From contig NZ_AUPZ01000002.1 in assembly GCF_000445475.1 (NCBI RefSeq), forward strand, positions 1 to 64,000: DNA of 64,000 nt, read 5' to 3'. The notes under the pieces are model-generated. The model was not told where the DNA came from. It saw only the letters and a list, made by a program, of their open reading frames with translations, and searched no databases. The stretch comes from Sulfurimonas hongkongensis. GTDB lineage: Bacteria; Campylobacterota; Campylobacteria; Campylobacterales; Sulfurimonadaceae. Below are positions 3,110 to 34,089 of this stretch, piece by piece; within the stretch, counting starts at the first letter, position 1, and every line of letters begins with the position of its first letter. The position numbers and the translations under genes were made by a program.

Positions 3110-5284
3110 ATGTCAAAAATTATTTGGTCAAAGATTGATGAAGCTCCGGCTTTAGCAACTTATTCGTTACTACCTATAGTAAATGCTTTTGTAAAAGAAG
3201 CGGGCGTTGAAGTGGTTACTTCAGATATATCATTAGCAGGTAGAGTTTTAGCAAGTCAAGGTTTAGCAGAGGACAACTTGTCAAAATTGGGAGAGGTTGT
3301 GTTACAAGAAGATGGAAATATCATTAAACTTCCAAATATTTCGGCTTCTGTTGGGCAACTAAAAGATTGTATAGCTGAGTTACAATCTCAGGGTTATGAC
3401 ATACCTGACTATCCAGAAAACCCATCAAACGATAAAGAAAGAGAGATTCAGCAAAAATACAGTGTATGCTTAGGCTCTGCTGTTAACCCTGTTCTTCGTG
3501 AGGGTAATTCAGATCGTCGCGCAGCAGTAGCTGTTAAAAACTTTGCTAAAAATAATCCACATAGATTAAAGCCTTTTGCAAAAGACTCAAAAGCATATGT
3601 GGCTCACATGCAAGGAAAAGGTGATTTTTACGCAAATGAAAAATCTGTAACATCAACTAAAAATCAAAAAGTAACAATAGCACTTAATGGTAAAGAGCTA
3701 ACTACCATAGATGCACTAGAGGGTGAGGTGTTAGATGGTACATTTATGTCAGTATCTGCTCTTCGTGATTTTTACAAAAAAACGATTCAAGATGCTAAAG
3801 ATAAGGGGCTTATTTGGTCTCTACACCTAAAAGCCACTATGATGAAGATTTCTGATCCGATTATGTTTGGTCACGGTTTTGAGATCTTCTTTGAAGATGT
3901 GTTTGCAAAATATAAAGATGTATTTAAAGAGTTAGAGATAAACCCAAATTTAGGTATGAGTGATCTAGAGAAAAAGATAAAAGGTCATCCAAAAGAATCT
4001 GAAATCAAAGCTGCTTTTCAATCGGTAGTTGAGGCTGATGCACCAAAAATAGCTATGGTTGACTCAAGAAAAAACCAAACAAACTTTAATGCTTCAAACG
4101 ATGTGATCATAGATGCGTCTATGCCTGTTGTAATTCGTGAAGGTGGTAAACAGTGGGATAGAGAAGATGGAGTGGGTGAGACTGTAGCTGTAATTCCTGA
4201 TTCTACGTATGCAATGTTTCATGAAGAGATGATGGCAGATTGTGTAAAAAATGGACAATACGATGTAACAACCATGGGGACTATGCAAAACATCGGTCTT
4301 ATGGCACAAAAAGCTGAAGAATATGGTTCACACCCAACTACATTTGAGCTTAGTGAGTCTGGAAAAGTAACAGTAACAACTGAAGATGGCGTTGAGCTTA
4401 TGAGTTTTGATTGCCAAAAGGGCGATATTTGGAGAATGTCAAGAGCTAAAGATATCCCAATAAAAGACTGGGTAAGATTGACTGTAGAGAGAACAAGAAT
4501 AGAGAATATCCCAGCTATTTTTTGGCTAGATGAAGATAGAGCGCATGATGCTGAGATTATCAAAAAAGTCAAAAAGTACTTAGCTGATCACAATACGGAT
4601 GGTTTAGATATTAGATTTATGAATGTTACAGATGCTACTCGCTTTACAAACGCAAGAATTCGCGAAGGTAAAAATACAATAGCTGTTACTGGAAATGTTT
4701 TAAGAGATCATCTAACAGATATGTATCCAATCTTAGAACTTGGAACTTCTGCTAAAATGCTCTCTATTGTTCCACTTATAGCTGGTGGTGGATTATATGA
4801 AACAGGTGCTGGTGGATCAGCTCCAAAACATGTTGACCAGTTTTTAGCTGAGGGGCATTTAAGATGGGATAGTTTGGGTGAATTTTTAGCACTTGCAGAG
4901 TCTTTAAGATTTATTGCACAAAAACACAATTCAGATAAATTAGCTACTGTGACAGCTGCACTTGATGTTGCAAATAATGACTACCTATCTAACAACAAAG
5001 CACCATCAAGAAAATGTTGTGAGCCAGATAATAAAGCTTCTCACTTTTATGTAGCTCAATATTGGGCAAATGCTTTGGCTAAGAGTGATAATAGTGAGTT
5101 AGCTGCTAAATTTGCACCTATTGCAGAGGAGTTAATTAAAAAAGAGGATCAGATCCTATCTGAATTACTTGCTGTTGAAGGTAAGCCTCAAGATATTGGT
5201 GGTTATTTTCATCCAAATGATGAAAAAGCTGAAGCTGCAATGAGACCATCAGAGACTCTAAATACTATTATAAATTCGATATAA
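3110..5284 (+). CDS. icd: Isocitrate dehydrogenase, NADP-dependent, monomeric type
   Basis: This 724-residue protein is the large monomeric NADP-isocitrate dehydrogenase (family usual length about 740), unrelated in length to the 400-residue dimeric enzyme. It interconverts isocitrate and 2-oxoglutarate plus CO2. In an organism with 2-oxoglutarate:ferredoxin oxidoreductase it can run as a reductive carboxylase in the rTCA cycle. The whole length matches the family, from the start ([20 protein letters not shown]) to the C-terminal [20 protein letters not shown] segment. It starts at an ATG after AAGGAC. A strong intrinsic terminator follows, so it is transcribed separately from mdh. A TATGAT hexamer at 3029-3034 is a possible -10 box. 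Confidence 0.96.
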
Positions 5285-5305
5285 TACAAAAAGCAGAACT
5301 AAGTG

Positions 5306-5333
5306 CGTCAAATAAGTCTTCACTTATTTGACG
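5306..5333. repeat. Perfect 12-bp intergenic inverted repeat with CTTC loop
   Basis: CGTCAAATAAGT (5306-5317) and its exact complement (5322-5333) flank a four-base CTTC loop. It lies directly after the icd stop codon and ahead of a separate classical terminator. No T-tract follows, so this stem is better read as an mRNA 3' stabiliser or protein site than as a terminator on its own. Confidence 0.7.
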
Positions 5334-5346
5334 ACATAGTAAAGAC

Positions 5347-5380
5347 TTAAAGATTAAATTGACTTAATCTTTAATTTTTT
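5347..5380 (+). terminator. Rho-independent terminator after icd
   Basis: An 11-bp perfect stem (5347-5357 with 5364-5374, six-base loop) is followed at once by six T residues at 5375-5380. Position and shape are those of an intrinsic terminator separating icd from the mdh gene. Confidence 0.85.
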
Positions 5381-5407
5381 ACTATTTTAAATATCAAAAG
5401 GAGTACC

Positions 5408-6358
5408 ATGAGAGGTAAAAGAGTAGCAATTGTAGGCGTTGGGAATGTCGGCTCATCTGTAGCTTATTCTTTGGCAATGAGTGGCTCTTGCCATGAAGTT
5501 ATTTTAAGAGCAAATGATGTAAACAAGGCAAAAGGAAAGGCATTAGACCTGTCTCAAGCTGCACAAGCTGCTAGAAAACATACAGTAATATCTGTTGCTG
5601 AAACACTAGAGGATGTAAAAGATTGTGATGTTGTTGTAGTCACTGCCGGTAGCCCGCGACTTCCTGGAATGAGCAGAGATGACTTACTACTTAAAAATGC
5701 TCAGATAATGAAAGATGTTATTAATGTTATAAAAGTCTCATCTCCAAATGCTGTTATTATTCCTGTGTCAAATCCACTCGATGCGATGGTTTACGTGGCT
5801 TTAAAGGAGACTGGCTGGGATAGAAGTAGAGTTTTAGGAATGGCTGGAATCTTAGATAGTGCTAGAATGGCTCACTTTGTATATGCAAAGTTAGGTTATG
5901 GAGCAGGGCAGATTAGATGTTCTGTTATGGGTGGTCACGGCGATGACATGGTTCCACTTCCTAGATTTTCAACTGTAGCTGGAGTTCCACTTACTGATCT
6001 TTTAACTTGGGATGAGATTAACGAAATAGTTGAAAAAACAAAAAAAGGTGGTGCTGAAATAGTTGAACTTCTTCAAGATGGAAGTGCGTACTATGCACCT
6101 GCTAAATCAACTGCTCTTATGGTTGAAGCAGTTTTAACTGATACAAAGCAGATATACCCATGTGCTGTAATGTTAAAAGGCGAATATGGATATACAGATG
6201 TAGTAAGTGGTGTCCCTGTTATGATCGGAGCTAAAGGAGTTGAGAAAGTTATAGAAGCCAACCTTAATGATGATCAAGATAGGAAGTTCGCAAAGTCCGT
6301 AGGAAGCGTGCAAGAACTAATAGATGCTCTCTATACTAACAAATTTTATACTAAATAA
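5408..6358 (+). CDS. mdh: Malate dehydrogenase, paralogue 1 (LDH/MDH superfamily)
   Basis: This 316-residue NAD(P)-dependent malate dehydrogenase interconverts malate and oxaloacetate. Visible features are the Rossmann motif GVGNVG (residues 10-15), the substrate loop PRLPGMSR with Arg84 (the position that is Gln in lactate dehydrogenase and Arg in malate dehydrogenase), Arg90, Arg153 and the catalytic His177 in GGHGDDMVP. It is odd at the end of the second beta strand. Where the adjacent paralogue has Tyr-Asp (Asp35, the residue that normally holds the NAD ribose), this one reads Arg34-Ala35. That hints at altered cofactor use, perhaps NADP. RBS AAGGAG precedes the ATG; intrinsic terminators lie on both sides, so it is its own transcription unit. 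Confidence 0.92.
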   Translation: MRGKRVAIVGVGNVGSSVAYSLAMSGSCHEVILRANDVNKAKGKALDLSQAAQAARKHTVISVAETLEDVKDCDVVVVTAGSPRLPGMSRDDLLLKNAQIMKDVINVIKVSSPNAVIIPVSNPLDAMVYVALKETGWDRSRVLGMAGILDSARMAHFVYAKLGYGAGQIRCSVMGGHGDDMVPLPRFSTVAGVPLTDLLTWDEINEIVEKTKKGGAEIVELLQDGSAYYAPAKSTALMVEAVLTDTKQIYPCAVMLKGEYGYTDVVSGVPVMIGAKGVEKVIEANLNDDQDRKFAKSVGSVQELIDALYTNKFYTK

Positions 6359-6362
6359 TATT

Positions 6363-6387
6363 AGAGTCATTTTTGTGACTCTTTTTT
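6363..6387 (+). terminator. Rho-independent terminator after mdh paralogue 1
   Basis: AGAGTCA (6363-6369), a six-base loop, TGACTCT (6376-6382) and a following run of T residues form a textbook intrinsic terminator. Confidence 0.87.
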
Positions 6388-6437
6388 CTTACAAAAACCT
6401 CTTCTTTTATCTATTTTACCAAAAGTTACAAAGTATA

Positions 6438-6443
6438 TATAAT
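6438..6443 (+). promoter_or_regulatory. Predicted -10 box upstream of mdh paralogue 2
   Basis: A consensus TATAAT lies about 105 bp upstream of the second mdh start, after a T-rich region of the kind that replaces a strong -35 box in Campylobacterota. The resulting leader would be nearly 100 nt. Confidence 0.5.
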
Positions 6444-6547
6444 GGATTTTTTTCAAAGCTAAGTAGTGTTATTATATACGATATAAAATTAAGACTGAGC
6501 TATTATGCAAGCAGATAGATTGTAAATAAAATTAAAAGGAAAATATA

Positions 6548-7492
6548 ATGGTAGGTAGAAAAGTAGGCATAGTCGGAGCTGGTTCAGTTGGAGCTACAGC
6601 GGCTTATAGCTTGACTATGACTGGAAGATGCCATGAGGTTATACTCTATGATATTGATAGTGATTTAACTGTTGGAAAGGCTATAGACATTGGACAATCT
6701 ACAAGCTACTCTCCAAGAGGAACTATAGTAACCCCAGCACTTCATCCAAGTGAGATGAAAGATTGTGATATTGTAGTTATAACAGCTGGAGTGCCTCGAA
6801 AAGGCGATATGACTAGAGCAGATTTGCTTATGATAAATGCAAAAATCATGAAAGAAGTAGTTGCTAATGTTATGAAGTACTCTCCTGATGCCATAATCAT
6901 TTGTGTGTCTAATCCTCTTGATATTATGACTTATGTTATTCATAAGATGACAAACTGGGATAGAAGTAGAATCATAGGTATGGCTGGCGCGTTAGATGGA
7001 GCCAGAATGGCTTATGAAATATATAAAAAAGTGGGCTTCGGCTCTGGACAAGTAAAGGGAATGCTTATTGGTGATCATGGGCAAAATATGATTCCGATGC
7101 CTGAAATATCTTCGATTGGTGGTGTTCCATTAGAACAAATTGTTACAAAAGGGGACATGCAAGATATTATTGCTAGAACAAAAGATGGTGGCGCGCAAAT
7201 AGTTAAACATCTTGGAACTTCAGCTTATTATGCACCAGGTCGTGCAGTTGCAGTTATGGTTGAGGCGATGCTTGATGATTCTCAAATAGTGATGCCATCT
7301 TCTGTACTTCTTGATGGGGAGTATGGATATAGTGATGTTTGTGTTGGTGTTCCTGTGGTCTTAGGTGGCAATGGAGTAGAGAAAATCATTGAGTTAGAGC
7401 TAGATGGTGAGACAAAAGCAAAATTTAAAATCTCCGTTGACTCCATAAAAGATGGCATAGAGATCTTAGAAAAAAACAATTTTTTTGTGTAG
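6548..7492 (+). CDS. mdh: Malate dehydrogenase, paralogue 2
   Basis: This 314-residue protein is the second malate dehydrogenase in tandem, clearly homologous over its length to the gene before it. It has GAGSVG (residues 10-15), the NAD-ribose aspartate Asp35 in VILYDID, the malate-type substrate loop PRKGDMTR with Arg84, and catalytic His177 in GDHGQNM. It therefore looks like the conventional NAD-linked enzyme of the pair. It is separated from paralogue 1 by a terminator and a promoter-like TATAAT, so the two can be expressed independently. Which one carries the rTCA flux cannot be decided from sequence. Confidence 0.92.
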   Translation: MVGRKVGIVGAGSVGATAAYSLTMTGRCHEVILYDIDSDLTVGKAIDIGQSTSYSPRGTIVTPALHPSEMKDCDIVVITAGVPRKGDMTRADLLMINAKIMKEVVANVMKYSPDAIIICVSNPLDIMTYVIHKMTNWDRSRIIGMAGALDGARMAYEIYKKVGFGSGQVKGMLIGDHGQNMIPMPEISSIGGVPLEQIVTKGDMQDIIARTKDGGAQIVKHLGTSAYYAPGRAVAVMVEAMLDDSQIVMPSSVLLDGEYGYSDVCVGVPVVLGGNGVEKIIELELDGETKAKFKISVDSIKDGIEILEKNNFFV

Positions 7493-7506
7493 AAACTACA
7501 CCTTTT

Positions 7507-7550
7507 GACTCTATTGTAGAGTCTTAAATGTGTAAATTTTACACATTTTT
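7507..7550 (+). terminator. Tandem hairpins / terminator after mdh paralogue 2
   Basis: Two stems follow the stop codon: GACTCTA/TAGAGTC (7507-7513 with 7517-7523, three-base loop), then a 10-bp stem (7526-7535 with 7539-7548) running into T residues. The second has the form of an intrinsic terminator, likely bidirectional. Confidence 0.72.
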
Positions 7551-7657
7551 CCATATGTTTTAAAAATTATATTGATAATAGGCTCTATTGTAAAAAGAGT
7601 GCTAAACTATGCTTCATATATATTTTAGTCCAAAAAACGAAAAAAGGGTAATCAAAA

Positions 7658-8509
7658 ATGCGTGAAATAGCATATGAAGAAATAGTAAAAAATGTCAGAG
7701 ATATCATAATATACTCTGCTTCAAACCTACCCCAAGATGCTCTTAAAGCGATGAAAGAAGCTTATGAAAATGAGAAAAGCCCAGTAAGTAAAGAAGTCTT
7801 AAAACAACTCTTAGATAATGCAGATATTGCAAGCAGTGAAGCTCGTCCACTATGTCAAGATACTGGACTTGCAGTTTTTTTTATAAAACTTGGTGCTGAT
7901 GTAAAAGTAGTTGGCGGTCTTTTAAAAGATGCCATCAATGAAGGAACAGAAAAGGGTTATATTGAAGGTTATCTAAGAGCTTCTACTTGTCATCCTTTTT
8001 CTCGCGCAAATAACAAAGACACTGTCGGTTACAACCTACCAGCCATTATTCATCTTGATATTGTCGAGGGCGACAAGATAGAGATAGAGTACGCTGCAAA
8101 AGGTGGCGGGAGCGAAAATGTATCTCGTGCAAGAGTTTTTCCTCCAGCTGCTGGCAAACAAGGTGTTATAGACTATGTCAAAGAGTGCATCTCTGATGCA
8201 GGACCAAATCCTTGTCCTCCTCTAACTGTTGGAGTGGGCATTGGTGGAACATTTGAAAAAGCAGCAATAAGCTCAAAACATGCTTTGTTCCGTGACATAG
8301 GTTCAAAAAACGAAGATCCAGAGATGGCAGAGCTTGAGCATGAGATTAAAACAGAGCTAAACAAACTTGGTATCGGAACTATGGGAATGGGCGGAACTGA
8401 GACGGTTTTAGCTGTTCATATTGAAGCAAACCCTTGTCATATAGCATCACTTCCTGTATCTGTAAATGTTCAGTGCCATAGTTCACGCCATACGCATATC
8501 ACTATATAA
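7658..8509 (+). CDS. Fumarate hydratase class I, alpha subunit
   Basis: This is the alpha chain (283 residues) of a two-subunit, [4Fe-4S]-dependent fumarase or tartrate-dehydratase-type hydro-lyase, interconverting fumarate and malate. Candidate cluster ligands are Cys66 in the family motif CQDTG, Cys186 in NPCPP and Cys273 in VQCHSSRH. The GGGSENVSRARVFPPA segment is typical of the family. The beta subunit gene follows after 11 bp. The location between mdh and sucCD makes fumarase the natural assignment over tartrate dehydratase. Confidence 0.92.
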   Translation: MREIAYEEIVKNVRDIIIYSASNLPQDALKAMKEAYENEKSPVSKEVLKQLLDNADIASSEARPLCQDTGLAVFFIKLGADVKVVGGLLKDAINEGTEKGYIEGYLRASTCHPFSRANNKDTVGYNLPAIIHLDIVEGDKIEIEYAAKGGGSENVSRARVFPPAAGKQGVIDYVKECISDAGPNPCPPLTVGVGIGGTFEKAAISSKHALFRDIGSKNEDPEMAELEHEIKTELNKLGIGTMGMGGTETVLAVHIEANPCHIASLPVSVNVQCHSSRHTHITI

Positions 8510-8520
8510 AGGTTATAAAA

Positions 8521-9078
8521 ATGAGTAAAACATATCATTTAACAACTCCACTAGATGATGAAATAACATCAAAACTTCACAGTGGTGATATTGTATATAT
8601 AAGTGGCACAATTTATACAGCAAGAGATGCTGCACACAAAAGACTTGTTGATCTGCTAGATGAGGGTAAAGAGCTCCCTTTTGATATAAAAGGTGCAATT
8701 ATTTATTTTGTTGGTCCAACTCCTCCAAAACCTGGGGATCCTATAGGAAGTGCTGGTCCTACTACATCTTACAGGATGGACTCATACTCTCCAAGACTTA
8801 TAGCTGAGGGTTTAAAGGGTATGATAGGTAAGGGTAAAAGAAATGAAGCTGTGACTGATGCTTGTCAAAAACATAAGGCTATCTACTTTGGTGCTACTGG
8901 CGGAGCTGGAGCACTTTTAGGTAAGAAGATAGAGAGTGCAGAGGTTATTGCTTATGAAGAGTTAGGGCCTGAGGCGATTAGAAAACTAGAGGTAGTTGAC
9001 TTTCCTGTGACTGTAATCAATGATACTTACGGTAAAGATCTATATAAAATAGGTCGCTCACAATATGAAGTCAAGTAG
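8521..9078 (+). CDS. Fumarate hydratase class I, beta subunit
   Basis: This 185-residue beta chain of the class I fumarase contains the swivelling catalytic domain seen in FumA/FumB C-termini. Family landmarks are GDIVYISGTIYTARDAAHKR near residue 20, YFVGPTPPKPGDPIGSAGPT near residue 60, and GATGGAGALLGKKI. It is co-transcribed with the alpha subunit (11-bp gap) and precedes sucCD by 42 bp with an AAGGAG site, so fumarase and succinyl-CoA synthetase probably share a message. Confidence 0.92.
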   Translation: MSKTYHLTTPLDDEITSKLHSGDIVYISGTIYTARDAAHKRLVDLLDEGKELPFDIKGAIIYFVGPTPPKPGDPIGSAGPTTSYRMDSYSPRLIAEGLKGMIGKGKRNEAVTDACQKHKAIYFGATGGAGALLGKKIESAEVIAYEELGPEAIRKLEVVDFPVTVINDTYGKDLYKIGRSQYEVK

Positions 9079-9120
9079 ACACAAAGCTAAGTAGTTTCAA
9101 TTTTAAAATAAGGAGAATAA

Positions 9121-10293
9121 ATGAATATACATGAATATCAGGCAAAACAGATTTTTGCTAAATATGGTGTTGCTACGCCTCGTGGTATTATCGCAAATAC
9201 ACCAGAACAAGCTGCTCGCAATGCAGAAGAACTTGGTGGAGATGTTTGGGTTGTAAAAGCTCAGATTCACGCTGGTGGTCGTGGTTTAGGTGGGGGAGTT
9301 AAACTTGCAAGAAGTAAAGACGAAGTAAAACAACTAGCAAATGAGATTTTGGGGATGAATCTTGTGACTCATCAAACAGGACCTGAGGGCAAACTTGTTC
9401 AAAAAGTATATATTGAAGAGGGTGCTGATATTGTTGATGAGCTCTATTTAGGTATTGTTCTTGACCGTGCTAAAGAGATGCCCGTAATTATGGCTTCAAC
9501 AGAGGGTGGTATGGAGATTGAAAAAGTGGCTGAGGAGTCACCTGATAAGATTATCAAAATAGCAGTTGATCCTGCTATTGGTTTTCAAGGTTTTCATGGA
9601 CGAGAGTTAGTTTTTGGTTTAGGTATTACTGATAAAAAAGAACAATCAAAATTTATAAAACTTGCATCTGCACTCTATACTCTTTACTTAGAAAATGATG
9701 CTGAAATGATAGAGATAAACCCTCTCATCAAGACTGCATCTGGGGATTTTTTAGCGCTTGATGGAAAGATGAGTTTTGATGATTCAGCTCTTGGACGTCA
9801 TCAAGACATAGAAGATATGAGAGATATTAGCGAAGAGGATGCTGATGAGAGAGAAGCATCTCAATATGGTCTCTCATATGTTTCACTTGATGGTGAAATA
9901 GGCTGTATGGTAAATGGCGCTGGTCTTGCTATGGGGACTATGGATACTATCAACTATATGGGTGGAACTCCTGCTAACTTTTTAGATGTTGGTGGTAGTG
10001 CAAATGCTCAGACTGTTGCTAAAGGGTTTGAAATTATTCTAAAAAATCCAAGAGTTAAAGCTATATTTGTAAATATTTTTGGCGGTATTGTTCGTTGTGA
10101 TCGCATTGCAAATGGTATTTTAGAAGCAACAAAACTGACTGATGTAAATGTTCCAGTAATTGTTCGCCTCGATGGTACAAATGCTGGTGAAGCTGCAGAG
10201 ATTCTAAAAGCTGCAAATATTCCTAATATTATCGTCGCTGATGATTTAGGTGATGGTGCTGCAAAAGCAGTAGCTGCTGCAAAACAAGCATAG
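9121..10293 (+). CDS. sucC: Succinyl-CoA synthetase, beta subunit (ADP-forming)
   Basis: This 390-residue subunit carries the ATP-grasp domain and the nucleotide site. It opens with the standard MNIHEYQAKQIFAKYGV. Family landmarks are KAQIHAGGRGLGGGVKLA near residue 45, EINPL around residue 200, and the C-terminal CoA-ligase section with VNIFGGIVRCD. In the reductive direction the SucCD complex makes succinyl-CoA for OorDABC. The gene starts at an ATG after AAGGAG, and sucD follows after 16 bp. Confidence 0.96.
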   Translation: MNIHEYQAKQIFAKYGVATPRGIIANTPEQAARNAEELGGDVWVVKAQIHAGGRGLGGGVKLARSKDEVKQLANEILGMNLVTHQTGPEGKLVQKVYIEEGADIVDELYLGIVLDRAKEMPVIMASTEGGMEIEKVAEESPDKIIKIAVDPAIGFQGFHGRELVFGLGITDKKEQSKFIKLASALYTLYLENDAEMIEINPLIKTASGDFLALDGKMSFDDSALGRHQDIEDMRDISEEDADEREASQYGLSYVSLDGEIGCMVNGAGLAMGTMDTINYMGGTPANFLDVGGSANAQTVAKGFEIILKNPRVKAIFVNIFGGIVRCDRIANGILEATKLTDVNVPVIVRLDGTNAGEAAEILKAANIPNIIVADDLGDGAAKAVAAAKQA

Positions 10294-10309
10294 TAGAGGA
10301 GGGTGATAT

Positions 10310-11182
10310 ATGTCAATTTTAGTAAACAAAGATACAAAGATAATAGTTCAAGGTTTTACTGGTAAAGAGGGAACTTTTCACGCTGAGCAATGCTTGGCTT
10401 ATGGTTCAAAGATTGTTGGAGGGGTAACACCAAACAAAGGTGGACAAGAGCATTTAGGTAAGCCTGTTTTTAACACAGTTACTCAAGCGGTGGAAGCTAC
10501 CGGTGCTACAGTGTCTATGATATTTGTTCCACCTGTTTTTGTTGCTGATGCTGTTATGGAAGCTGCTGAGGCTGGGATTGAACTTGCTGTTATTATAACA
10601 GAGGGTGCGCCTGTCCGTGATATGCAAAAAGCAAAAGCGCATGCTGTCAAGCATGGTATGATGACAATTGGGCCAAACTGCCCTGGTATTATTACGGCTG
10701 AGGAGTGTAAAATTGGGATTATGCCTGGTATGATTTTCAAAAAAGGTAATGTTGGGCTAATCTCAAAGTCTGGAACTCTAACATACGAGGGAGCTAACCA
10801 AGTTTGTAATGAAGGTTTTGGTATTTCAACTGCTGTTGGTATAGGCGGAGACCCTATCATCGGACTTTCATATAAGCAACTTCTTCCTATGTTTGAAGCG
10901 GATCCACAAACTGAAGCTATAGTTATGATTGGCGAGATTGGTGGAGACTTAGAGATACAGGCTGCTGCTTATATAAAAGAGCATATAACTAAGCCTGTAG
11001 TTGCTTTTATAGCAGGGCAAACCGCACCTGCTGGGAAAAGAATGGGTCATGCTGGTGCTATTGTAAGTGGTGGTGCTGGTACTGCAAAAGAGAAGATGGA
11101 AGCACTAGAGGCTGCTGGTGTTAGAGTGGTTGTTTCACCCGCTGAAATTGGCAAGGCTGTTGCGGAGGTTTTATCTAAGTAA
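10310..11182 (+). CDS. sucD: Succinyl-CoA synthetase, alpha subunit
   Basis: This 290-residue subunit binds CoA at its N-terminal Rossmann domain ([16 protein letters not shown]). It carries the phosphorylated histidine in [17 protein letters not shown] near residue 245. GPNCPG and GIGGDPIIG are further family signatures. It is paired with sucC (16-bp gap, AGGAGG site). A structured 147-bp spacer separates it from the oor genes. Confidence 0.96.
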
Positions 11183-11195
11183 CTTTAATTATGTG

Positions 11196-11239
11196 TTAGC
11201 CTTGATGTGTAACAAAAGGTTACTTTATCAAAAGGCTAT
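11196..11239 (+). other. Two-tier stem-loop between sucD and oorD
   Basis: TAGCCTT near 11197 pairs with AAGGCTA at 11232-11238. Nested inside, GTAAC pairs with GTTAC (around 11209-11222). No T-run follows. It may be a processing site, a 3' stabiliser or an attenuator setting the sucCD to oor ratio; the function is inferred only from position. Confidence 0.5.
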
Positions 11240-11329
11240 TAGCGTGATTTAGTTTAAAATTATGAAAACTTAGATAATCTGTAAAGAGCAAAGTGTAGCT
11301 TAAAATTACACTAAAAAATAGGAGAATAA

Positions 11330-11680
11330 ATGGGAACTTTTAAGACAGAAAACCCAGGTAACCAACCTGTGTGGGTAAATACAAGCAACTGTAAAGCATG
11401 TGATATTTGTGTATCTGTTTGTCCATCAGGTGTACTTGGAATGAAATATGAATCTACTTCGACACTAGGTGCTATGATTTCAATTGATCACCCAGAAGCT
11501 TGCATTGGATGTAACGAGTGTGAACTTAGCTGTCCTGATTTTGCTATCTATGTAGCAGACAGAAAAGAGTATAAAGAAGCTGGGTTTAGTTTTGCTAAGT
11601 TAACCGATGAAGCTAAAGAGCGTCAAGCTGCTATTGTCGCAAACAATTATATGTCACTTAGTGAACAAGGAGTTAAGTAA
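11330..11680 (+). CDS. oorD: 2-oxoglutarate:acceptor oxidoreductase, delta (ferredoxin) subunit
   Basis: This 116-residue, two-cluster ferredoxin subunit has Cys21-x2-Cys24-x2-Cys27-x3-Cys31 and Cys58-x2-Cys61-x2-Cys64-x3-Cys68, each a [4Fe-4S] motif. It passes electrons between the catalytic core and the external low-potential acceptor. Its stop overlaps the oorA start (TAATG), so the two are translationally coupled. It starts after AGGAG; GATAAT at 11273-11278 is a possible -10 box. Confidence 0.94.
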   Translation: MGTFKTENPGNQPVWVNTSNCKACDICVSVCPSGVLGMKYESTSTLGAMISIDHPEACIGCNECELSCPDFAIYVADRKEYKEAGFSFAKLTDEAKERQAAIVANNYMSLSEQGVK

Positions 11681-12813
11681 TGGCAACTAGAGAAGTAATA
11701 TCTACAGGAAATGAATTAGCTGCTACTGCGGCTATTGATGCAGGCTGTATGTTTTTTGGTGGTTATCCACTAACGCCATCAAGTGAAGTAATGCATGTTA
11801 TTTCTGACCTTTTACCAAAAAAAGGTGGAGTATCAATCCAAATGGAAGATGAAATCGGAGGTATCTGTGCTGTTATTGGCGCAGCTATGGTTGGTAAGCG
11901 TGCCTTAACCGCAACATCAGGTCCAGGAATGAGTTTAAAAGCTGAGCAACTAGGTCTTGCTCAAATGGCAGAAGTACCTTTGGTTTGTGTAAATGTAATG
12001 CGCGGTGGTCCATCAACTGGTCTTCCGACTCGTGTATCTCAAGGCGATATACTTCAAGCTAAAAACCCATCACATGGTGATTACAAATCAATCACATTGT
12101 GTGCAGGCTCATTAGCTGAGTGTTATACCGAGGTTGTAAGAGCTTTTAATTTAGCAGATAGATTTATGCAACCAGTTATCGTTTTGCTAGATGAGACTAT
12201 TGGTCATATGCATGGAAAAGCTAATATTCCAACTGCTGAAGATGTTGAAGCTGGGATAGTTCCAAGAAAAAGATTTGATGGTCCAGCAGAAGAGTATTTT
12301 CCATATGGTGTTGGACATGATGAACCTGCAGTTCTTAACCCAATGTATGAGGGTTATAGATATCACTTTACTGGTCTTCACCACGATAAAAATGGTTACC
12401 CTACCGAGGAGATAGAGACTTGTAGAAAACTAATCCAAAGATTAGAAGATAAAGTAGCACTACATGAAGATGAAGTTGAATCTTTCGAAGAGTTTATGAT
12501 GGAAGATGCAGATGTTATGATAGTAGCTTACGGTTCAGTTTCACTTGCTGCAAAAGAGGCTATTCGTCACTTAAGAGCAGAAGGTATCAAAGCTGGACTT
12601 TTTAGACCAATTACAATCTGGCCATCTCCAGCTAAAAAAATCAAAGAGCATACTGATAAAATAGAAAAAGTTCTTGTAGTTGAGCTAAATATTGCACAAT
12701 ATCATAGTGAAATTCAAAGAGCTGCTGCAAGACTTGATATTGATGGACTATTTAAAGTTAATGGAAGACCAATATCTCCACAAGAAATTGTTAGCAAAGT
12801 AAAGGAGTTATAA
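11680..12813 (+). CDS. oorA: 2-oxoglutarate:acceptor oxidoreductase, alpha subunit
   Basis: This 377-residue alpha chain of the ferredoxin-type 2-oxoglutarate oxidoreductase interconverts 2-oxoglutarate with succinyl-CoA and CO2. It starts with the family pattern GNELAATAAIDAGCMFFGGYPLTPSSE and has the pyrimidine-binding-type core followed by a C-terminal transketolase-like domain (VAYGSVSLAAKEAI, FRPITIWP). It is the second gene of a four-gene operon, overlapping oorD by one base and followed by oorB after one base. In rTCA organisms this enzyme fixes CO2. Confidence 0.95.
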   Translation: MATREVISTGNELAATAAIDAGCMFFGGYPLTPSSEVMHVISDLLPKKGGVSIQMEDEIGGICAVIGAAMVGKRALTATSGPGMSLKAEQLGLAQMAEVPLVCVNVMRGGPSTGLPTRVSQGDILQAKNPSHGDYKSITLCAGSLAECYTEVVRAFNLADRFMQPVIVLLDETIGHMHGKANIPTAEDVEAGIVPRKRFDGPAEEYFPYGVGHDEPAVLNPMYEGYRYHFTGLHHDKNGYPTEEIETCRKLIQRLEDKVALHEDEVESFEEFMMEDADVMIVAYGSVSLAAKEAIRHLRAEGIKAGLFRPITIWPSPAKKIKEHTDKIEKVLVVELNIAQYHSEIQRAAARLDIDGLFKVNGRPISPQEIVSKVKEL

Positions 12814-27392: not shown

Positions 27393-28952
27393 TTAAATAA
27401 ACTCTCTCTTTAGTGCATCTTTATTTATCTTATTTCTATCACTTTGCACTAGAGGGAGAGACCTTTTATATATGATTTTACTTGGGATCATATAAGAAGC
27501 AAGATGTTTTTTAAGCTCAAATATTATCTCTTTTGGAGCTAATTCACTAAGAGCTGAGTAAACCATAACAATCTCCTCTTCTATCTCTTCATTTTCTATA
27601 GAAAAGACTGCACACTCCTTTATCTGGGGCAGACACCTATTTACAACAGACTCTATCTCAAAAGGTGAGACTCTAAAACCTCTAGTTTTTATCATATCAT
27701 CGTCTCTTGATACAAAGTAGAGATAACCCTCTTCATCTTTGTAAACATAATCACCAGATGCAACTACTACTTCATCTCTTAGTTGACCCTCTAGGTTTAT
27801 AATATCTTTTAAAATCTCAATTGACTTAAATCTTTTTGCATTTTGTTCAGGTGCCTTCCAGAAACCTCTATATATATAGCCGCCTCTGTGTATTAGCTCC
27901 CCTACTTCACGGACTTTGCACTCTTTACCATCTTCGTTTAAGACGAAAAGCTCAACATCAGGGATGGCTTTACCTATAGATTCAGGTCGTATCTCAATCT
28001 GTGATGGGTCAAGATATGTTGAACGAAATGCTTCTGTTAAACCGTGCATAGAAAAGAAAAGTGCCTCTCTAAATGTTTTTTTGCACTCTTTTATCATCTT
28101 TGGAGTTACGTTTCCACCTGATGATGTAATTATTCTAACCCCATCAAAAAGTTCAGGATTTGGGACTCTATTAATATCAAAAATCTGTGTAATATTAAAA
28201 GGCATCAAAGGTAAAACTGTTACTTTGTCATTTATGAGATGGTTAAAAAAGTCCTCTGGCAATATAAACCTATGAAGTGCAAGAGTAGCTCTTTTATAGA
28301 GTGTGCTAAAGATTTGATTTAGTCCATAATCTAGGTTAAAGATAAGAATGCCAGAGATAATATCACTCTCTTCTAGACTTAGATATTGTGATGCTACACG
28401 AGCTGAGTCTATTAGATTTCTGTGCGAGATAACTATGCCTTTTGGAGTCCCTGAGAGTCCAAAAGAGTAAGTAATAATGGCATTGTTGTGGCCATTTACA
28501 TCACAATTGTATGTTTTGTTATAATATTTAAAAATCTCTTCAAATGAAGCTATATCACTAGAAGCTGTTTCATATGAAATAATATGACCATTGAAACTAA
28601 TCTCTTCTATGCTCTCTAGCTTTACTTTATCAGTTATAATGCACTTTATATCACAGTCATCAATAATGTACTCAACTTGTTTTGGCTTTAAAAGCTTTGT
28701 AAGAGGTACTAAGATGTAAGGAGTTGAGAGAATGGCAAGGATTGCTATAACTTGATCTATCCCTTTGTTTGAATAGACTCCGATTCGTGACTCTTTTGGA
28801 AGATCTAGCTCATTTAAGTAGTAAGCGACCTGATCAACTCTCTTTAAAAGCTCTTTGTAGCTAATGCTATCTTCGCTAAAAACAATCACTTTTTTTTCTG
28901 GATGCGTTAAAGCTCCATCTTCGATAAGTGTTCTAATAGAGTTAATTGACAT
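27393..28952 (-). CDS. AMP-forming acyl/aminoacyl ligase in the glutamate mutase operon
   Basis: This 519-residue member of the ANL (acyl-CoA synthetase/NRPS adenylation) superfamily has P-loop YSFGLSGTPKG (162-172), A5-like HGLTEA (303-308), SGD (399-401), hinge SRDDDMIKTRGFRVSP (415-430) and the C-terminal catalytic lysine region NKINK (Lys508/511). The A4-like motif FNLDYGLNQ contains Asp208, at a place where amino-acid-adenylating enzymes hold the substrate amino group. No carrier domain is fused. An upstream in-frame start would add 15 residues. ATG 28952 has GGAGGAG in front and overlaps the glmL-like gene by 11 bp. A role in adenylating 3-methylaspartate, the product of the mutase encoded just upstream, is my inference. 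A generic fatty-acyl or aromatic substrate is the alternative. Confidence 0.85.
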   Translation of the reverse strand: MSINSIRTLIEDGALTHPEKKVIVFSEDSISYKELLKRVDQVAYYLNELDLPKESRIGVYSNKGIDQVIAILAILSTPYILVPLTKLLKPKQVEYIIDDCDIKCIITDKVKLESIEEISFNGHIISYETASSDIASFEEIFKYYNKTYNCDVNGHNNAIITYSFGLSGTPKGIVISHRNLIDSARVASQYLSLEESDIISGILIFNLDYGLNQIFSTLYKRATLALHRFILPEDFFNHLINDKVTVLPLMPFNITQIFDINRVPNPELFDGVRIITSSGGNVTPKMIKECKKTFREALFFSMHGLTEAFRSTYLDPSQIEIRPESIGKAIPDVELFVLNEDGKECKVREVGELIHRGGYIYRGFWKAPEQNAKRFKSIEILKDIINLEGQLRDEVVVASGDYVYKDEEGYLYFVSRDDDMIKTRGFRVSPFEIESVVNRCLPQIKECAVFSIENEEIEEEIVMVYSALSELAPKEIIFELKKHLASYMIPSKIIYKRSLPLVQSDRNKINKDALKREFI

Positions 28953-30132
28953 TTTCTTCTCCTCCTGCTCCAATGGTCCAAATATCATAGTTGCCATCTA
29001 GTACTGTCATTGGGTTGTGTTGTGAATTTAGTATCTTTTTGTAAAAAAATGAGATGATATCTTCTATTTCATTTGCAGATAAAACCTTAGTAATGCCACC
29101 TGTAAAGACTATGGAGTTTATAGAGAGAAGTTTTAGGTTTATGTATGATTGTTTATAGTATGACATCTTTGTTAGTACTAAAAATATCGCAAGTTGCATC
29201 AAAACCTTAGTACCTTTTTGACTCTCATCGCTAAAAATGTTCTCAGTCACTTTAAGATGTGCTAAAAGCTCATAAACAAACTCGTTACTTTGGGCTGCGA
29301 AGATAAGAGACTCTTTTGATTTATAAACTCCAAGCTTTTTAAAGACAAGTCTGTCATACTCATTTTCGGTTACGATATTGTCATCAACTAAGTCTTTTGA
29401 GTAGTGAATATCTGTTGTAGCTCCACCTATATCTATAAGTATAAAAGGATCAACTACACCAAATTTTGTATGGATAAATGGAAGTGTTTTGTTTACTATA
29501 TATGGGGTTGAGTAGATTTGATTTGCGGTGATTTCATAGAGGTTTTTGATATCTTCTTTTCCCTCAATATCCTGCTGATATAGATTTGTAAGATAGACTT
29601 TTAGATTTTCTTCTATAATATGAAGCTTTTCATCTATGATATTAGGTAGTATGACGAGATTTTGGATATTTTTCTCTAGCTTTTGTGCTTCATTTTCACA
29701 CCCTACAAAGACTATATTTGAGTAGTTTAACTTTTCTAAATACTCATACAAATCATCTTTAAAAATATCCCTATTTGAGTTGATTCCACCAACTATGATG
29801 ACTACATCAATCAAATCACTAGGGATGGAGTAGTCCAAGAGGTTTTGATACATCACACTCTCTATAATGTTGATGCCAGAGTTAAAAGCAATGTTTTTAG
29901 CATACTTTAGAGAAAAGGAGTTTGTAAGTCCGATGATTAGAGTGCTAAGACCTCCATTTGCCGAAGAGCAGATATATACATCATTTTTTTTATAGCACTC
30001 TATGGTTTTTTGGCATTTGTATTTTAAATCATCTAATATATCTTTGTTAAAGTCTCTAAAATGCTGTTCTATACACTCTGGTGTACTAACTTTAAAGTAG
30101 GTACTTCCTACGTCTATTAGTAGTCTGTTCAT
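28942..30132 (-). CDS. glmL: Glutamate mutase accessory ATPase (GlmL/MutL family)
   Basis: This 396-residue actin-fold ATPase of the GlmL/MutL family is found between or beside the two glutamate mutase subunits in clostridia and is thought to repair or reload the B12 cofactor. Visible phosphate-binding loops are LLIDVGSTYFKV (residues 4-15) and FILIDIGGATTDIHYS near residue 230. VIIVGGINSNRD and FTGGITKVL are further landmarks. It is a little shorter than the usual 450-470 residues. It overlaps glmE by ATGA and the ligase gene by 11 bp. The name MutL here has nothing to do with mismatch repair. Confidence 0.88.
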   Translation of the reverse strand: MNRLLIDVGSTYFKVSTPECIEQHFRDFNKDILDDLKYKCQKTIECYKKNDVYICSSANGGLSTLIIGLTNSFSLKYAKNIAFNSGINIIESVMYQNLLDYSIPSDLIDVVIIVGGINSNRDIFKDDLYEYLEKLNYSNIVFVGCENEAQKLEKNIQNLVILPNIIDEKLHIIEENLKVYLTNLYQQDIEGKEDIKNLYEITANQIYSTPYIVNKTLPFIHTKFGVVDPFILIDIGGATTDIHYSKDLVDDNIVTENEYDRLVFKKLGVYKSKESLIFAAQSNEFVYELLAHLKVTENIFSDESQKGTKVLMQLAIFLVLTKMSYYKQSYINLKLLSINSIVFTGGITKVLSANEIEDIISFFYKKILNSQHNPMTVLDGNYDIWTIGAGGEENVN

Positions 30133-31493
30133 TGCATAATTCCTATGTCGTGAATGATATCATTAACTATACTTGTAGTGTCTTTGTTAAGGTTACACTG
30201 CGCCTTTTCATATTCGTAACACCTTTTGGGTATAGGTACATTTCCTCTTTTTATGATGCGGATGTTTTTCTTTGCATCTCTTATGGTTATCATCTCGTTG
30301 TGGTTTATGATGTGAGGTGAAAATGGTACATCTATGATGCCATTTTTTATGGAGTTAAAGACCTTTCTCCAAAGAGTATCGGCTGGGTCATTAAAAACCG
30401 CCTCCATAATAGCATGAACTTCAAGAATTAAAATCTCCTCCTCTTCTTCATCTACAATACGCGGAAGACCATTTAAGATGCCAAGAGTGTATTGAGTGTT
30501 TGCAACTGTCGCGGCGTTTGCCTCTTTTGTAGGGATTCCTGATGCTTCTTCTCTTGTTTTTGTAATTATCTTATCCGCCCCAACCATAGATGCTATGACT
30601 GTTGACATATTTATAAGCTGTTCTGCAAAGCTTTTGTTGGTTGGAAACGCTCCCATCCATTGATGATAGACTAGATGGATATTTGCATCTTCGCAACCTA
30701 TCTCTTTTGCATAAAAAGCTGAGAGCTTTCTAATAACCGCACCCATAACTATGTCTTGGTTCATGGAGCCAGTTTGAGAAAAAGAGACTGAAAATGATTT
30801 CACACCCTCTTCTAGTGAGAGTAGCATCTCTAAGAGCTGTATCACAATAGTAATAGCTGGAGGCACAAGAGTTGCAGTTAGCGGACCAAAAGATTCTCTG
30901 TTTATGGGTTCATTTAAGCGTGAATAGTTTGCACAAACTCTCTCAACATATTTCCAATACAAAAAAGCTTTATCTAGTGGAAAGTTTTTAGAGTATGGCA
31001 ACAAGTAGGTAATAGGTCCGCCCTCTATCTCAAAGATGCCAGATGCGATAGCGGTCTCTATAAGAAGTCTTGCATCTGGTGTACCGTGCCTTAGGCTTAC
31101 AGGCTTGTTAAAGTGAGTTATCATCTTTCTTGTAGTTCTATAGCCGTGATTTACAAGTGGATAGCCATTTAACATATCTACATCATTTTCTTCACTTAGG
31201 CGTAGCATCTTCTTTGCAGTTGCATAATCGTTTAGTCTTGTGTTTGAGTCGATAGTAAGTGGTAAAACATCGACATTTGCATTTACAAAAAACTCATTTA
31301 GAGCGTATTGTTTCTTGTATGTTGGGAAACCACCACGAGGCTGAACTAGCATCTTCTTTTTTGTCTTAAAGTGGTGTGAGATAAAGAGTTCTTTACTAGC
31401 ACCTCTTACAAACTCTTCAACCTCTGCAAAGTCAAAGTTATCTACATACTCGTTACTTAGTATGATCTCTCTTTCTTCTTGAAGCAAGCTCAT
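30129..31493 (-). CDS. glmE: Glutamate mutase, catalytic epsilon subunit (methylaspartate mutase E chain)
   Basis: This 454-residue TIM-barrel subunit converts L-glutamate to (2S,3S)-3-methylaspartate by an adenosylcobalamin radical rearrangement. The residues known to bind glutamate in the clostridial enzyme are kept in context: the arginine claw as Arg53 (LVQPRGG), Arg86 (DSNTRLNDY) and Arg135 (LRHGTPDARLL), plus Glu157 (IEGGP) and Tyr163/Tyr167 (TYLLPYSKN). HQWMGAFP, TKEANAA and the C-terminal DVPFSPH also match. It is about 25 residues shorter than the clostridial protein. It overlaps glmS and glmL by four bases on each side, so the three are translationally coupled. It looks catalytically competent. 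Confidence 0.93.
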   Translation of the reverse strand: MSLLQEEREIILSNEYVDNFDFAEVEEFVRGASKELFISHHFKTKKKMLVQPRGGFPTYKKQYALNEFFVNANVDVLPLTIDSNTRLNDYATAKKMLRLSEENDVDMLNGYPLVNHGYRTTRKMITHFNKPVSLRHGTPDARLLIETAIASGIFEIEGGPITYLLPYSKNFPLDKAFLYWKYVERVCANYSRLNEPINRESFGPLTATLVPPAITIVIQLLEMLLSLEEGVKSFSVSFSQTGSMNQDIVMGAVIRKLSAFYAKEIGCEDANIHLVYHQWMGAFPTNKSFAEQLINMSTVIASMVGADKIITKTREEASGIPTKEANAATVANTQYTLGILNGLPRIVDEEEEEILILEVHAIMEAVFNDPADTLWRKVFNSIKNGIIDVPFSPHIINHNEMITIRDAKKNIRIIKRGNVPIPKRCYEYEKAQCNLNKDTTSIVNDIIHDIGIMQ

Positions 31494-31903
31494 CTCATAC
31501 CTCTTTGTTTTAAGTACTCTTCTAAGGTATCGAGCCCTGTATTTAAGTCTACTTGATGAAAAACCAAATCAAAACCGTAGTTTTTATACTTTGGCACTAT
31601 CTCTTCTGCATCTGCACTACCCACAACTAAGTTTCCACCTATCATCATAACAAGATTGTCTAAGCCTTTGTAGCTTGATTTTAGAAGTTTTATCTCCCTA
31701 CTCCAACCCTCAGCCTCGCCATTTAGCGAAGAGATAAGAAGCACCTCCGCCCCAGTCTCAACCACCGCATCAAAAAACTCTTCAAGGTAAGTGTTTACCC
31801 CAAGATTAAAAACCTCAAAACCTCTTGCATTTAAAGAGAGTTCGATGAGTCTATTTGCCACAACGTGTATATCGTTCCCAACTACGCCTGTTACTACTTT
31901 CAT
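31490..31903 (-). CDS. glmS: Glutamate mutase, cobalamin-binding sigma subunit
   Basis: This 137-residue, flavodoxin-like B12-binding subunit supplies the cofactor histidine. The base-off motif is present as Asp11-Ile-His13-Val-Val-Ala16: the Asp and cobalt-ligating His are conserved, but the final Gly of DxHxxG is Ala. SSLNGE (the SxL loop) and GGNLVVG are as expected. It is the first gene of the operon. Only a weak Shine-Dalgarno is seen, and I find no cobalamin riboswitch signature in the short leader. Confidence 0.92.
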   Translation of the reverse strand: MKVVTGVVGNDIHVVANRLIELSLNARGFEVFNLGVNTYLEEFFDAVVETGAEVLLISSLNGEAEGWSREIKLLKSSYKGLDNLVMMIGGNLVVGSADAEEIVPKYKNYGFDLVFHQVDLNTGLDTLEEYLKQRGMR

Positions 31904-32469: not shown

Positions 32470-32949
32470 ATGGACTTTTTTACAGCAGATATTTGTGATG
32501 AGCATATTGATAAGGTTTTGGTTTTAGACCCTGATTTTAAAAACTATGGTGGGGCTTCAAGATGCCAAGGTGAGGTTGTAACTATAAAGCTTGATAAAAA
32601 CAATGCTGGGCTTATAGAGTTGCTTCGTGATGAAGATGGAAGTGGTAAGGTTGTAGTTGTTGATGTCAGAGAAGAGTATTTTGCAGTTGTGGGCGAGAAC
32701 CTTATGAAGTTGGCATATAAAAACAACTACGCTGGCATCATAGTAAATGGATATGTTCGTGATACATTTCAGATTAAAGATATCCCTGTAGCACTCTATG
32801 CACTTGGAGTTTGCCCTAGAAAATATATCCCCGTTACAGAGTCAGAGAGAGGTGAGCATCTCTCCTTTGGAGGGATTGGTTTTGAAGATGGAGACTATGT
32901 TTATGCAGATAGCGATGGTATTATAGTTACACCAGAGAAGATAGTTTAA
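32470..32949 (+). CDS. rraA: RraA-family protein (HMG/oxaloacetate aldolase-type fold)
   Basis: This 159-residue member of the RraA/MenG family is close in length to E. coli RraA (161). Signature residues lie in GIIVNGYVRDTFQIKDIPV and ALGVCPRK. The Arg-Asp pair after NGY belongs to the metal and substrate site of the related 4-hydroxy-4-methyl-2-oxoglutarate aldolases, which also decarboxylate oxaloacetate. In E. coli, RraA instead inhibits RNase E. Which role applies is unclear; Campylobacterota generally use RNase Y/J rather than RNase E, which argues for an enzyme. A TRAP binding-protein gene follows after 6 bp. Confidence 0.88.
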   Translation: MDFFTADICDEHIDKVLVLDPDFKNYGGASRCQGEVVTIKLDKNNAGLIELLRDEDGSGKVVVVDVREEYFAVVGENLMKLAYKNNYAGIIVNGYVRDTFQIKDIPVALYALGVCPRKYIPVTESERGEHLSFGGIGFEDGDYVYADSDGIIVTPEKIV

Positions 32950-32955
32950 AGCATT

Positions 32956-34089
32956 ATGAATAGAAGAGACTTTATAACTGGCGCAACTCTGGTATCAGCT
33001 TCATTAGCTCTTAGCGGGTGTAATGAAAATAATCGCCAAGCTATAGATCATAGTAAGCATCCCCAAAAGTCAAGTGATGAGATTAAAAATTTTAATATTG
33101 TTAAAAACAAAAAAACAAGTATAAAACTAGCTACTTCATGGCCGGCACACTTCTCTATCATAGGTACAGGAGTTGAGAGTTTTGCAAAGAGGATAAAAGA
33201 GATAAGCTCTAACTCTTTAGAGGTTAAGCTCTATCCAAAAAATACTCTTGTTCCAGCTCTTGCAGTCTTTGATGCTTGCTCGAGCGGTCAGATAGATGCT
33301 TTTCACTCAGGTCCCTACTACTGGAAAGGTAAAAACTCTTCGTTTTCTCTCTTTAGTGGTGTCCCTTTTGGTTTTAATGCTGAGGAGATTAACTCATGGA
33401 TGCTTTATGGGGGTGGATTAGAGCTTTGGAGAGAGGAGTATGCAAAGTATAATCTCTACCCTTTTTTAGGTGGAAATACTAATATTCAGATGGGTGGATG
33501 GTTTACAAAGCCTATCAACTCTTTAGCAGACATGCAAGGAATAAAGATGAGGATGCCAGGACTAGCTGGTGAAGTCTATTCTAAGATGGGAGTAAACCCA
33601 ATACTACTTCCTGCTGGGGAGATATACACAGCGTTAGAGAGAGGTGTGATAGATGCTACTGAATGGGTAGGACCTGCACTTGACATCAAGATGGGATTTT
33701 ATAAAGTTGCACCATACTACTACTCTGGTTGGCATGAGCCAGGCTCTATTTTAGAGCTAACTTTCAATAAGCACTTCTGGAGCAAGTTCTCACATGAGCA
33801 TCGGATGATGATAGAAGTAGCTGCAAGTGAGTTAAACTCAAATATGATTTATGAATTCCATTCAGAAAATATCAATGCTCTTGCAAAATTAAAAGAGTTA
33901 AATATAGATATTTATAGGTATCCACAAGATGTTATAAAGGCTGCAAAGATAGCTTTAAAAGAAGTCATCTCTGAGCAAAGTGCCAAAAGTGAGGACTTTA
34001 AAAGAGTATATGCATCTATAGAAGCTCATCTAAAACTCTCTCGTGAGTGGAGTGATGCAAGTCTTCGTTATTTTCTAAATGAAAGATAA
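32956..34089 (+). CDS. TRAP-type solute-binding lipoprotein (DctP family)
   Basis: This 377-residue extracytoplasmic binding protein has a Tat-like start (NRRDFITGA) and lipobox LALSGC with Cys22, so it is probably an anchored lipoprotein. The DctP fold shows as IKLATSWPAHFSIIGTGVE, AGEIYTALERGVIDATEWVG and LELTFNKHFWSKFS. The WP/GVIDATEWVGP pattern resembles the 2-oxoacid-binding TakP/SmoM subgroup. The membrane partners DctQ and DctM are absent from the window. Coupling to rraA (6-bp gap) hints that the ligand is an oxoacid; this is inference. Confidence 0.9.
   Translation: MNRRDFITGATLVSASLALSGCNENNRQAIDHSKHPQKSSDEIKNFNIVKNKKTSIKLATSWPAHFSIIGTGVESFAKRIKEISSNSLEVKLYPKNTLVPALAVFDACSSGQIDAFHSGPYYWKGKNSSFSLFSGVPFGFNAEEINSWMLYGGGLELWREEYAKYNLYPFLGGNTNIQMGGWFTKPINSLADMQGIKMRMPGLAGEVYSKMGVNPILLPAGEIYTALERGVIDATEWVGPALDIKMGFYKVAPYYYSGWHEPGSILELTFNKHFWSKFSHEHRMMIEVAASELNSNMIYEFHSENINALAKLKELNIDIYRYPQDVIKAAKIALKEVISEQSAKSEDFKRVYASIEAHLKLSREWSDASLRYFLNER

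Follow-up and report, generated by a model that had tools for sequence, protein, structure and literature searches.

A mobile glutamate mutase cassette with a modified ANL-fold enzyme and an RraA-type partner in Sulfurimonas hongkongensis

The first 64,000 nucleotides of contig NZ_AUPZ01000002.1 of Sulfurimonas hongkongensis (hereafter the window, by which we mean this whole stretch of DNA) contain four genes that form a single overlapping operon, running from 31903 to 27393 on the minus strand. These genes (glmS, glmE, a glmL-type gene and a gene for a stand-alone ANL-fold enzyme), together with an RraA-type gene divergent from glmS, make up a mobile cassette. The features of the locus, with the evidence used to assign each, are the following.

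31490-31903, minus strand: glmS, B12-binding subunit of glutamate mutase (open reading frame (ORF) list and profile match)
30129-31493, minus strand: glmE, catalytic subunit of glutamate mutase (ORF list, profile and structure-based alignment)
28942-30132, minus strand: ASKHA ATPase of the glmL type, short (396 residues) and strongly diverged (profile and conserved motifs)
27393-28952, minus strand: stand-alone ANL-fold enzyme, 519 residues from the conserved start (profile and alignments of relatives)
28961-28966, minus strand: AGGAGG ribosome-binding site of the ANL gene, within the 3' end of glmL (sequence)
28440-28469, minus strand: ATP phosphate loop of the ANL enzyme in altered form, YSFGLSGTPK in place of the canonical YTSG[ST]TGxPK (alignment)
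28326-28331, minus strand: Asp223-Tyr224 of the ANL enzyme, equivalent to VinN D230-F231, amino-group recognition (alignment and PMC11253843)
28023-28025, minus strand: Arg325 of the ANL enzyme, equivalent to VinN R331, invariant (alignment)
32470-32949, plus strand: RraA-type gene, class II pyruvate aldolase/oxaloacetate decarboxylase fold, divergent from glmS (profile, alignment and co-occurrence)

The ORF coordinates agree with an earlier note on this DNA in giving overlaps of four bases between glmS and glmE and between glmE and glmL. The longest ORF of the ANL gene spans 27393-28997 and would overlap glmL by 56 bases; however, the start common to its relatives is Met16 of that frame, at 28952, and the AGGAGG (28966-28961) sits 8 nt upstream of it. 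With this start the overlap is 11 bases, as the earlier note had it. (Note that residue numbers of the ANL enzyme follow the longest ORF, and that Asp208 of the earlier note is Asp223 here.) The arrangement is not a matter of chance, the same gene order being found in about 120 loci. No credible Rfam match to a regulatory RNA was found in the intergenic region between glmS and the RraA gene.

GlmS scores 157.7 bits against profile NF002612 (cut-off 110) and GlmE 384.8 bits against PF06368 (cut-off 26.6); against the TIGR01503 equivalog GlmE reaches 368.7 bits, narrowly below the cut-off of 390.1. Alignment to the Clostridium glutamate mutase structures 6h9e and 1cb7 indicated that GlmE retains the substrate Arg, His, Glu and Tyr residues, which bears out the claim made previously for its glutamate-binding residues. 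The companion claim for GlmS stands in part: the cobalt-ligating His13 is invariant and the Asp of the DxHxxG motif is also retained, but the Gly of that motif is replaced by Ala16 in 120 of 120 sequences, giving DxHxxA. The GlmL-type protein, at 71.5 bits against a cut-off of 475, is strongly divergent and has the conserved phosphate and adenosine motifs DVGSTYFK, DIGGATTD and TGGITK. The sequences of GlmS and GlmE strongly suggest that the mutase of the cassette synthesizes 3-methylaspartate.

In possessing GlmS, a GlmE with retained active-site residues and a GlmL-type protein, the cassette resembles the clostridial glutamate mutase/methylaspartase pathway, from which it differs in the strong divergence of GlmL, in the missing glycine of the GlmS motif and in the lack of a methylaspartase. 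Indeed, the methylaspartase profile PF07476 has no match anywhere in the genome of the window (estimated to be 100% complete), in keeping with what had been claimed from the window alone, and in other genomes its matches do not exceed 42 bits and are confined to stretches of about 80-130 residues within other proteins. The surroundings, previously described as those of an autotroph using the reductive tricarboxylic acid (rTCA) cycle, are of that kind: a block of rTCA-type genes at 3110-12813 encodes isocitrate dehydrogenase, two malate/lactate dehydrogenases (their genes in tandem at 5408-6358 and 6548-7492), a succinyl-CoA synthetase subunit and a 2-oxoacid:ferredoxin oxidoreductase. Ordinary glutamate fermentation genes with a methylaspartase encoded elsewhere would share the glmS-glmE-glmL composition, but with no methylaspartase match in a complete genome and a host of rTCA type we consider this explanation extremely improbable.

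A scan of GTDB returned 215 stretches with relatives of GlmE. We used the best 80 loci among them, with identities of 81-96%, and combined these with Campylobacterota loci from whole genomes (a few organisms are in both sets) to give the 127 neighbourhoods that we clustered. Among these, glmE was present in 125, glmL in 122, the ligase gene in 120, glmS in 119 and the RraA gene in 103, with absences mostly attributable to contig ends or ORF-calling losses. The order and direction of glmS, glmE, glmL and the ligase gene are near-constant in about 120 loci, and the RraA gene is usually divergent from glmS. The earlier note had made its case depend on the ligase adjoining glmSEL in relatives, and it does so in about 120 of 125 loci, the remainder being mostly contig ends. 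The cassette occurs in Campylobacterota, Gammaproteobacteria and Betaproteobacteria. The closest GlmE, at 96% identity, is that of a Sulfurimonas relative (L018), identity across phyla and classes is 84-92%, and the GlmE of the window is 90-92% identical to those of isolates that include Amphritea balenae, Vibrio hannami and Colwellia maritima. These GlmE values greatly exceed those of a housekeeping yardstick: the aspartyl-tRNA synthetase of the window is, by a by-eye estimate from alignments, only about half identical to its gammaproteobacterial counterparts. In a quick tree of GlmE the classes are mixed, and well-supported branches force at least three class changes for Gammaproteobacteria. 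The simplest reading of these sequence comparisons is that the cassette has been transferred between phyla; misbinning does not explain them because single-contig genomes of the genus of the window carry the operon.

Two variations around the cassette were also observed. At one locus (L014, on contig C61 of G047) the place of glmL and the ligase gene after glmE is taken by two ORFs, of 428 and 226 residues, that resemble a nucleotide-binding ATPase and its partner; the ligase is encoded on another contig, and the cassette may have been split by an insertion. In Sulfurimonas and Arcobacter relatives (L011, L062, L147 and Arcobacter-group loci) a small cytochrome c gene lies near the cassette or the RraA gene, on differing sides, and some of these loci carry a response regulator gene adjacent to one for a protein of about 395 residues, perhaps its sensor kinase; this association could be chance or regulatory.

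The RraA-type gene, overlooked by the earlier note, is the only other gene invariably found together with GlmE in Campylobacterota. In a sample of 397 high-quality Campylobacterota genomes, RraA was found in 57 of 57 genomes bearing GlmE, whereas a strong match was found in only 3 of 340 lacking it; seven further GlmE-lacking genomes have distant RraA homologues only. Within the genus of the window the figures are 4 of 4 and 0 of 33 (Fisher p 7e-66 for Campylobacterota and 1.5e-5 for the genus, shared ancestry being ignored in both). Because of this co-occurrence RraA is not a chance neighbour, and given the scattered presence of the pair in one genus, ancestry alone would be a hard explanation to sustain. 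In some genomes RraA is encoded kilobases away from the operon or on a different contig, yet it is present; around three RraA genes so placed (L147-L149) we found no common pathway gene. A gene for a TRAP-type DctP solute-binding protein (32956-34089) begins 6 bases past the RraA gene in the window, and a gene of DctP length adjoins RraA in several Sulfurimonas relatives and rarely elsewhere.

The RraA-type protein shares with the RraA/HMG-CHA aldolase family its fold and an R-D pair whose Arg is preceded, at a distance of 21 positions, by an acidic residue; it differs from that family in its genetic tie to glutamate mutase and in reading E76-x20-R97-D98, the motif of HMG/CHA aldolase being D-x20-R-D. 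Arg97-Asp98 is present in 77 of 77 sequences and Glu or Asp at position 76 in 78 of 78; E. coli RraA has Arg-Gln at the position of R97-D98. In HMG/CHA aldolase the R-D motif supplies an enolate-stabilizing Arg and a metal-binding Asp (PMC5065237). From the conservation of Arg97-Asp98 and of the acidic residue, the protein of the cassette is likely to be an enzyme acting on 2-oxo acids.

These findings raise the possibility that the cassette converts glutamate to 2-oxobutyrate, with transamination of 3-methylaspartate to 3-methyloxaloacetate and RraA-catalysed decarboxylation of the latter, for isoleucine or propionyl-CoA, with the ANL protein in a regulatory or accessory role. The constant company of RraA and GlmE in Campylobacterota fits such a route, as does an aspartate-aminotransferase-like (AspC-like) gene that converges on the RraA gene in 33 loci, gammaproteobacterial wherever the class is known; moreover, decarboxylation by RraA would be irreversible and would pull the mutase, and the formation of 2-ketobutyrate by way of glutamate mutase is recognized as a route to isoleucine (PMC7476758). 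However, threonine deaminase (TIGR01127) is above cut-off in 57 of 60 genomes, including every cassette-bearing one, which makes a role in isoleucine synthesis redundant, and the route leaves unexplained both the constant coupling of the ANL gene to glmL and the invariant pocket residues of the ANL enzyme described below. We regard this route as a doubtful, although serious, alternative. Glutamate mutase as the sole source of isoleucine was rejected, given the threonine deaminase in all sampled cassette-bearing genomes; an aminotransferase as a universal further partner was likewise rejected, as none was found in Campylobacterota.

The nearest named family of the ANL enzyme is the exosortase-A-associated ligase family TIGR03098 (418.8 bits, below the cut-off of 592.35), to which it is 33-34% identical and with which it shares an identical GLTEAFRSTYLDP motif. 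Asp223, Tyr224 and Arg325 are invariant in 118 of 118 ANL sequences and occupy the positions of D230, F231 and R331, the residues with which VinN recognizes 3-methylaspartate (PMC11253843). The ligase pocket thus resembles that of VinN, in line with the view of the earlier note that the Asp223 motif fits an amino-acid substrate. The same Asp-Tyr-Gly, with an Arg in the corresponding position, also occurs in a VinN-like protein whose gene neighbours those of glutamate mutase on a Streptomyces plasmid. The invariant pocket residues and the coupling to the mutase point to a substrate that resembles 3-methylaspartate and would be bound as a beta-amino acid. An AlphaFold model (mean predicted local distance difference test score of 70, low near the active site) supports the ANL fold only, with no detail of the pocket.

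The clustering of glutamate mutase genes with a stand-alone ANL enzyme that has an Asp, a bulky aromatic residue and an Arg at the 3-methylaspartate-recognizing positions recalls the VinH/VinI-VinN system of vicenistatin biosynthesis in Streptomyces, and one might suppose that here, too, the ligase loads 3-methylaspartate onto a carrier protein, in this case encoded elsewhere, for subsequent decarboxylation by a pyridoxal phosphate (PLP)-dependent enzyme. Members of the TIGR03098 family adjoin genes for a PLP decarboxylase (TIGR03099) and a carrier, a trio that corresponds to VinN/VinO/VinL (PMC11284099), and a plasmid of Streptomyces yangpuensis (L137:1-13236) combines VinN-, VinO-, VinH- and VinI-like genes with a type I polyketide synthase gene close to mycofactocin genes, its VinN-like protein being about 22% identical to the ANL enzyme of the window. 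Unlike the vicenistatin system, the cassette has GlmL, RraA and an altered phosphate loop, and no VinL-type carrier or VinO-type decarboxylase was found; unlike the ANL enzyme here, the TIGR03098 ligases have a canonical TSGSTG loop and an NGK A10 lysine, and lie with their decarboxylase and carrier in polysaccharide clusters. In particular, the sole full carrier match in the genome of the window is the fatty-acid AcpP, encoded between fabG- and fabF-like genes; a second match (21 bits) is partial and falls in a 395-residue protein that has similar proteins in cassette-lacking genomes. Three other cassette-bearing genomes (G002, G039 and G047) gave one carrier match each, a comparison of about 127 loci brought out no recurrent carrier-like family in the vicinity of the operon, and a search of the genome of the window for a VinO-like decarboxylase (TIGR03099) gave only LysA- and SpeA-like matches. 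A continuation of the vicenistatin type, which the earlier note had taken as its model, is therefore quite improbable.

A further arrangement is seen on a Methylobacter plasmid (L138:6898-11257), where a glutamate-mutase-like pair lies with genes for a class-II aminoacyl-tRNA synthetase-like 'asparagine synthetase A' and an unassigned 505-residue protein. As in the cassette, an aminoacylating-type enzyme (here a class-II synthetase paralogue, 'AsnA-like') adjoins glmS and glmE homologues; unlike in the cassette, the enzyme has an unrelated fold and GlmE is only 31% identical. The plasmid genes may constitute an independent system for activating 3-methylaspartate.

The explanation that we favor, at somewhat less than even confidence, is that the cassette is a mobile device that makes 3-methylaspartate, which the ANL enzyme and an RraA lyase then put to use. 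GlmS-GlmE, kept working by the GlmL-type ATPase, would rearrange glutamate to (2S,3S)-3-methylaspartate, which the ANL enzyme would bind as a beta-amino acid, activating or transferring its beta-carboxylate. Because the searches yielded neither a dedicated carrier nor a decarboxylase of the VinO type, the beta-carboxylate would probably pass to a small nucleophile (for instance CoA or an amine) and not to a carrier of the polyketide type. RraA may be a metal-dependent 2-oxo-acid lyase acting on the oxo acid formed by transamination of 3-methylaspartate; in the simplest case it would decarboxylate 3-methyloxaloacetate to 2-oxobutyrate, a step that would either draw forward the mutase reaction, in itself unfavourable, or remove a dead-end product. 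The AspC-like gene adjoining the RraA gene in gammaproteobacterial loci is consistent with such a transamination. The general idea of the earlier note, that 3-methylaspartate is made and used without a methylaspartase, thus survives in general form: the conserved operon, the lack of a methylaspartase and the VinN-like pocket speak for it, whereas the carrier and decarboxylase continuation falls away and adenylation is not secured.

Several observations weigh against this explanation. An intact phosphate loop and A10 lysine are required for ATP-dependent activation in known ANL relatives. Where YTSG[ST]TG would be expected, the enzymes of the cassette have YSFG-[L/I/M/V, sometimes S/A]-[ST]-G, with Phe179 in 118 of 118 sequences (comparison ANL enzymes all have TSG[ST]T, 21 of 21) and the loop Ser/Thr changed to a hydrophobic residue or Ala in 108 of 118, and the A10 position is not conserved, holding K, R, E, Q, N, S or D. 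Because of these changes ATP-dependent adenylation is not to be assumed, the label 'adenylating' that the ligase had been given is not secured, and such activation may be absent. In addition, Arg325 also occurs in the exosortase-linked ligases (which have Ala at the position of Tyr224), the RraA motif is not exactly that of HMG/CHA aldolase, the substrate assigned to RraA is a guess, and the aminotransferase gene was not found in Campylobacterota cassettes. Nor was a corrinoid adenosyltransferase found: the CobA-type profile (TIGR00708) has no match in the genome of the window and six others, and the PduO-type profile (PF01923) has none in 59 of 60 genomes, including every cassette carrier, the only match being in G010.

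The changes in the phosphate loop and at the A10 position, like the failure to find an adenosyltransferase, would be accommodated if the ANL protein had lost its ATP-phosphate chemistry and did not adenylate at all but bound an amino acid and a nucleotide to serve the mutase, whether in substrate handling, reactivation or cofactor supply. Consistent with this, the ribose-binding Asp416 and hinge Arg431 are still invariant in an alignment of 82 sequences, and the coupling to glmL is constant. However, Asp223, Tyr224 and Arg325 look like the substrate pocket of an active ligase, and the loop retains Ser178, Gly180 and Gly183 and, in most cases, Thr/Ser182 and Lys186; we judge a non-adenylating protein to be unlikely. 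Still less probable, in our estimate, is the specific proposal that the ANL protein is a new mutase partner whose remodelled nucleotide site serves the B12 mutase, for instance in substrate or cofactor handling, and the cassette a self-contained B12 enzyme system in genomes that gave no match to a known corrinoid adenosyltransferase.

That glutamate mutase can be encoded beside a stand-alone ANL enzyme is already known from antibiotic clusters. Literature searches on glutamate mutase with RraA, Sulfurimonas, Sulfurospirillum and Colwellia found no description of the operon among the results listed, nor did the literature searched describe the RraA partnership, the spread across phyla or the altered ATP site. 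3-Methylaspartate is known from amino-acid fermentation, from the haloarchaeal methylaspartate cycle and from actinobacterial antibiotics, and none of these uses fits the compact cassette described here, which occurs both in autotrophic Campylobacterota and in heterotrophic marine Gammaproteobacteria with GlmE sequences close to 90% identical. The ANL subfamily of the cassette has an ATP site that departs from the textbook motif, and RraA-type proteins gain a concrete metabolic partner. The occurrence of the cassette in common aquatic bacteria points to a metabolite or pathway not described so far.

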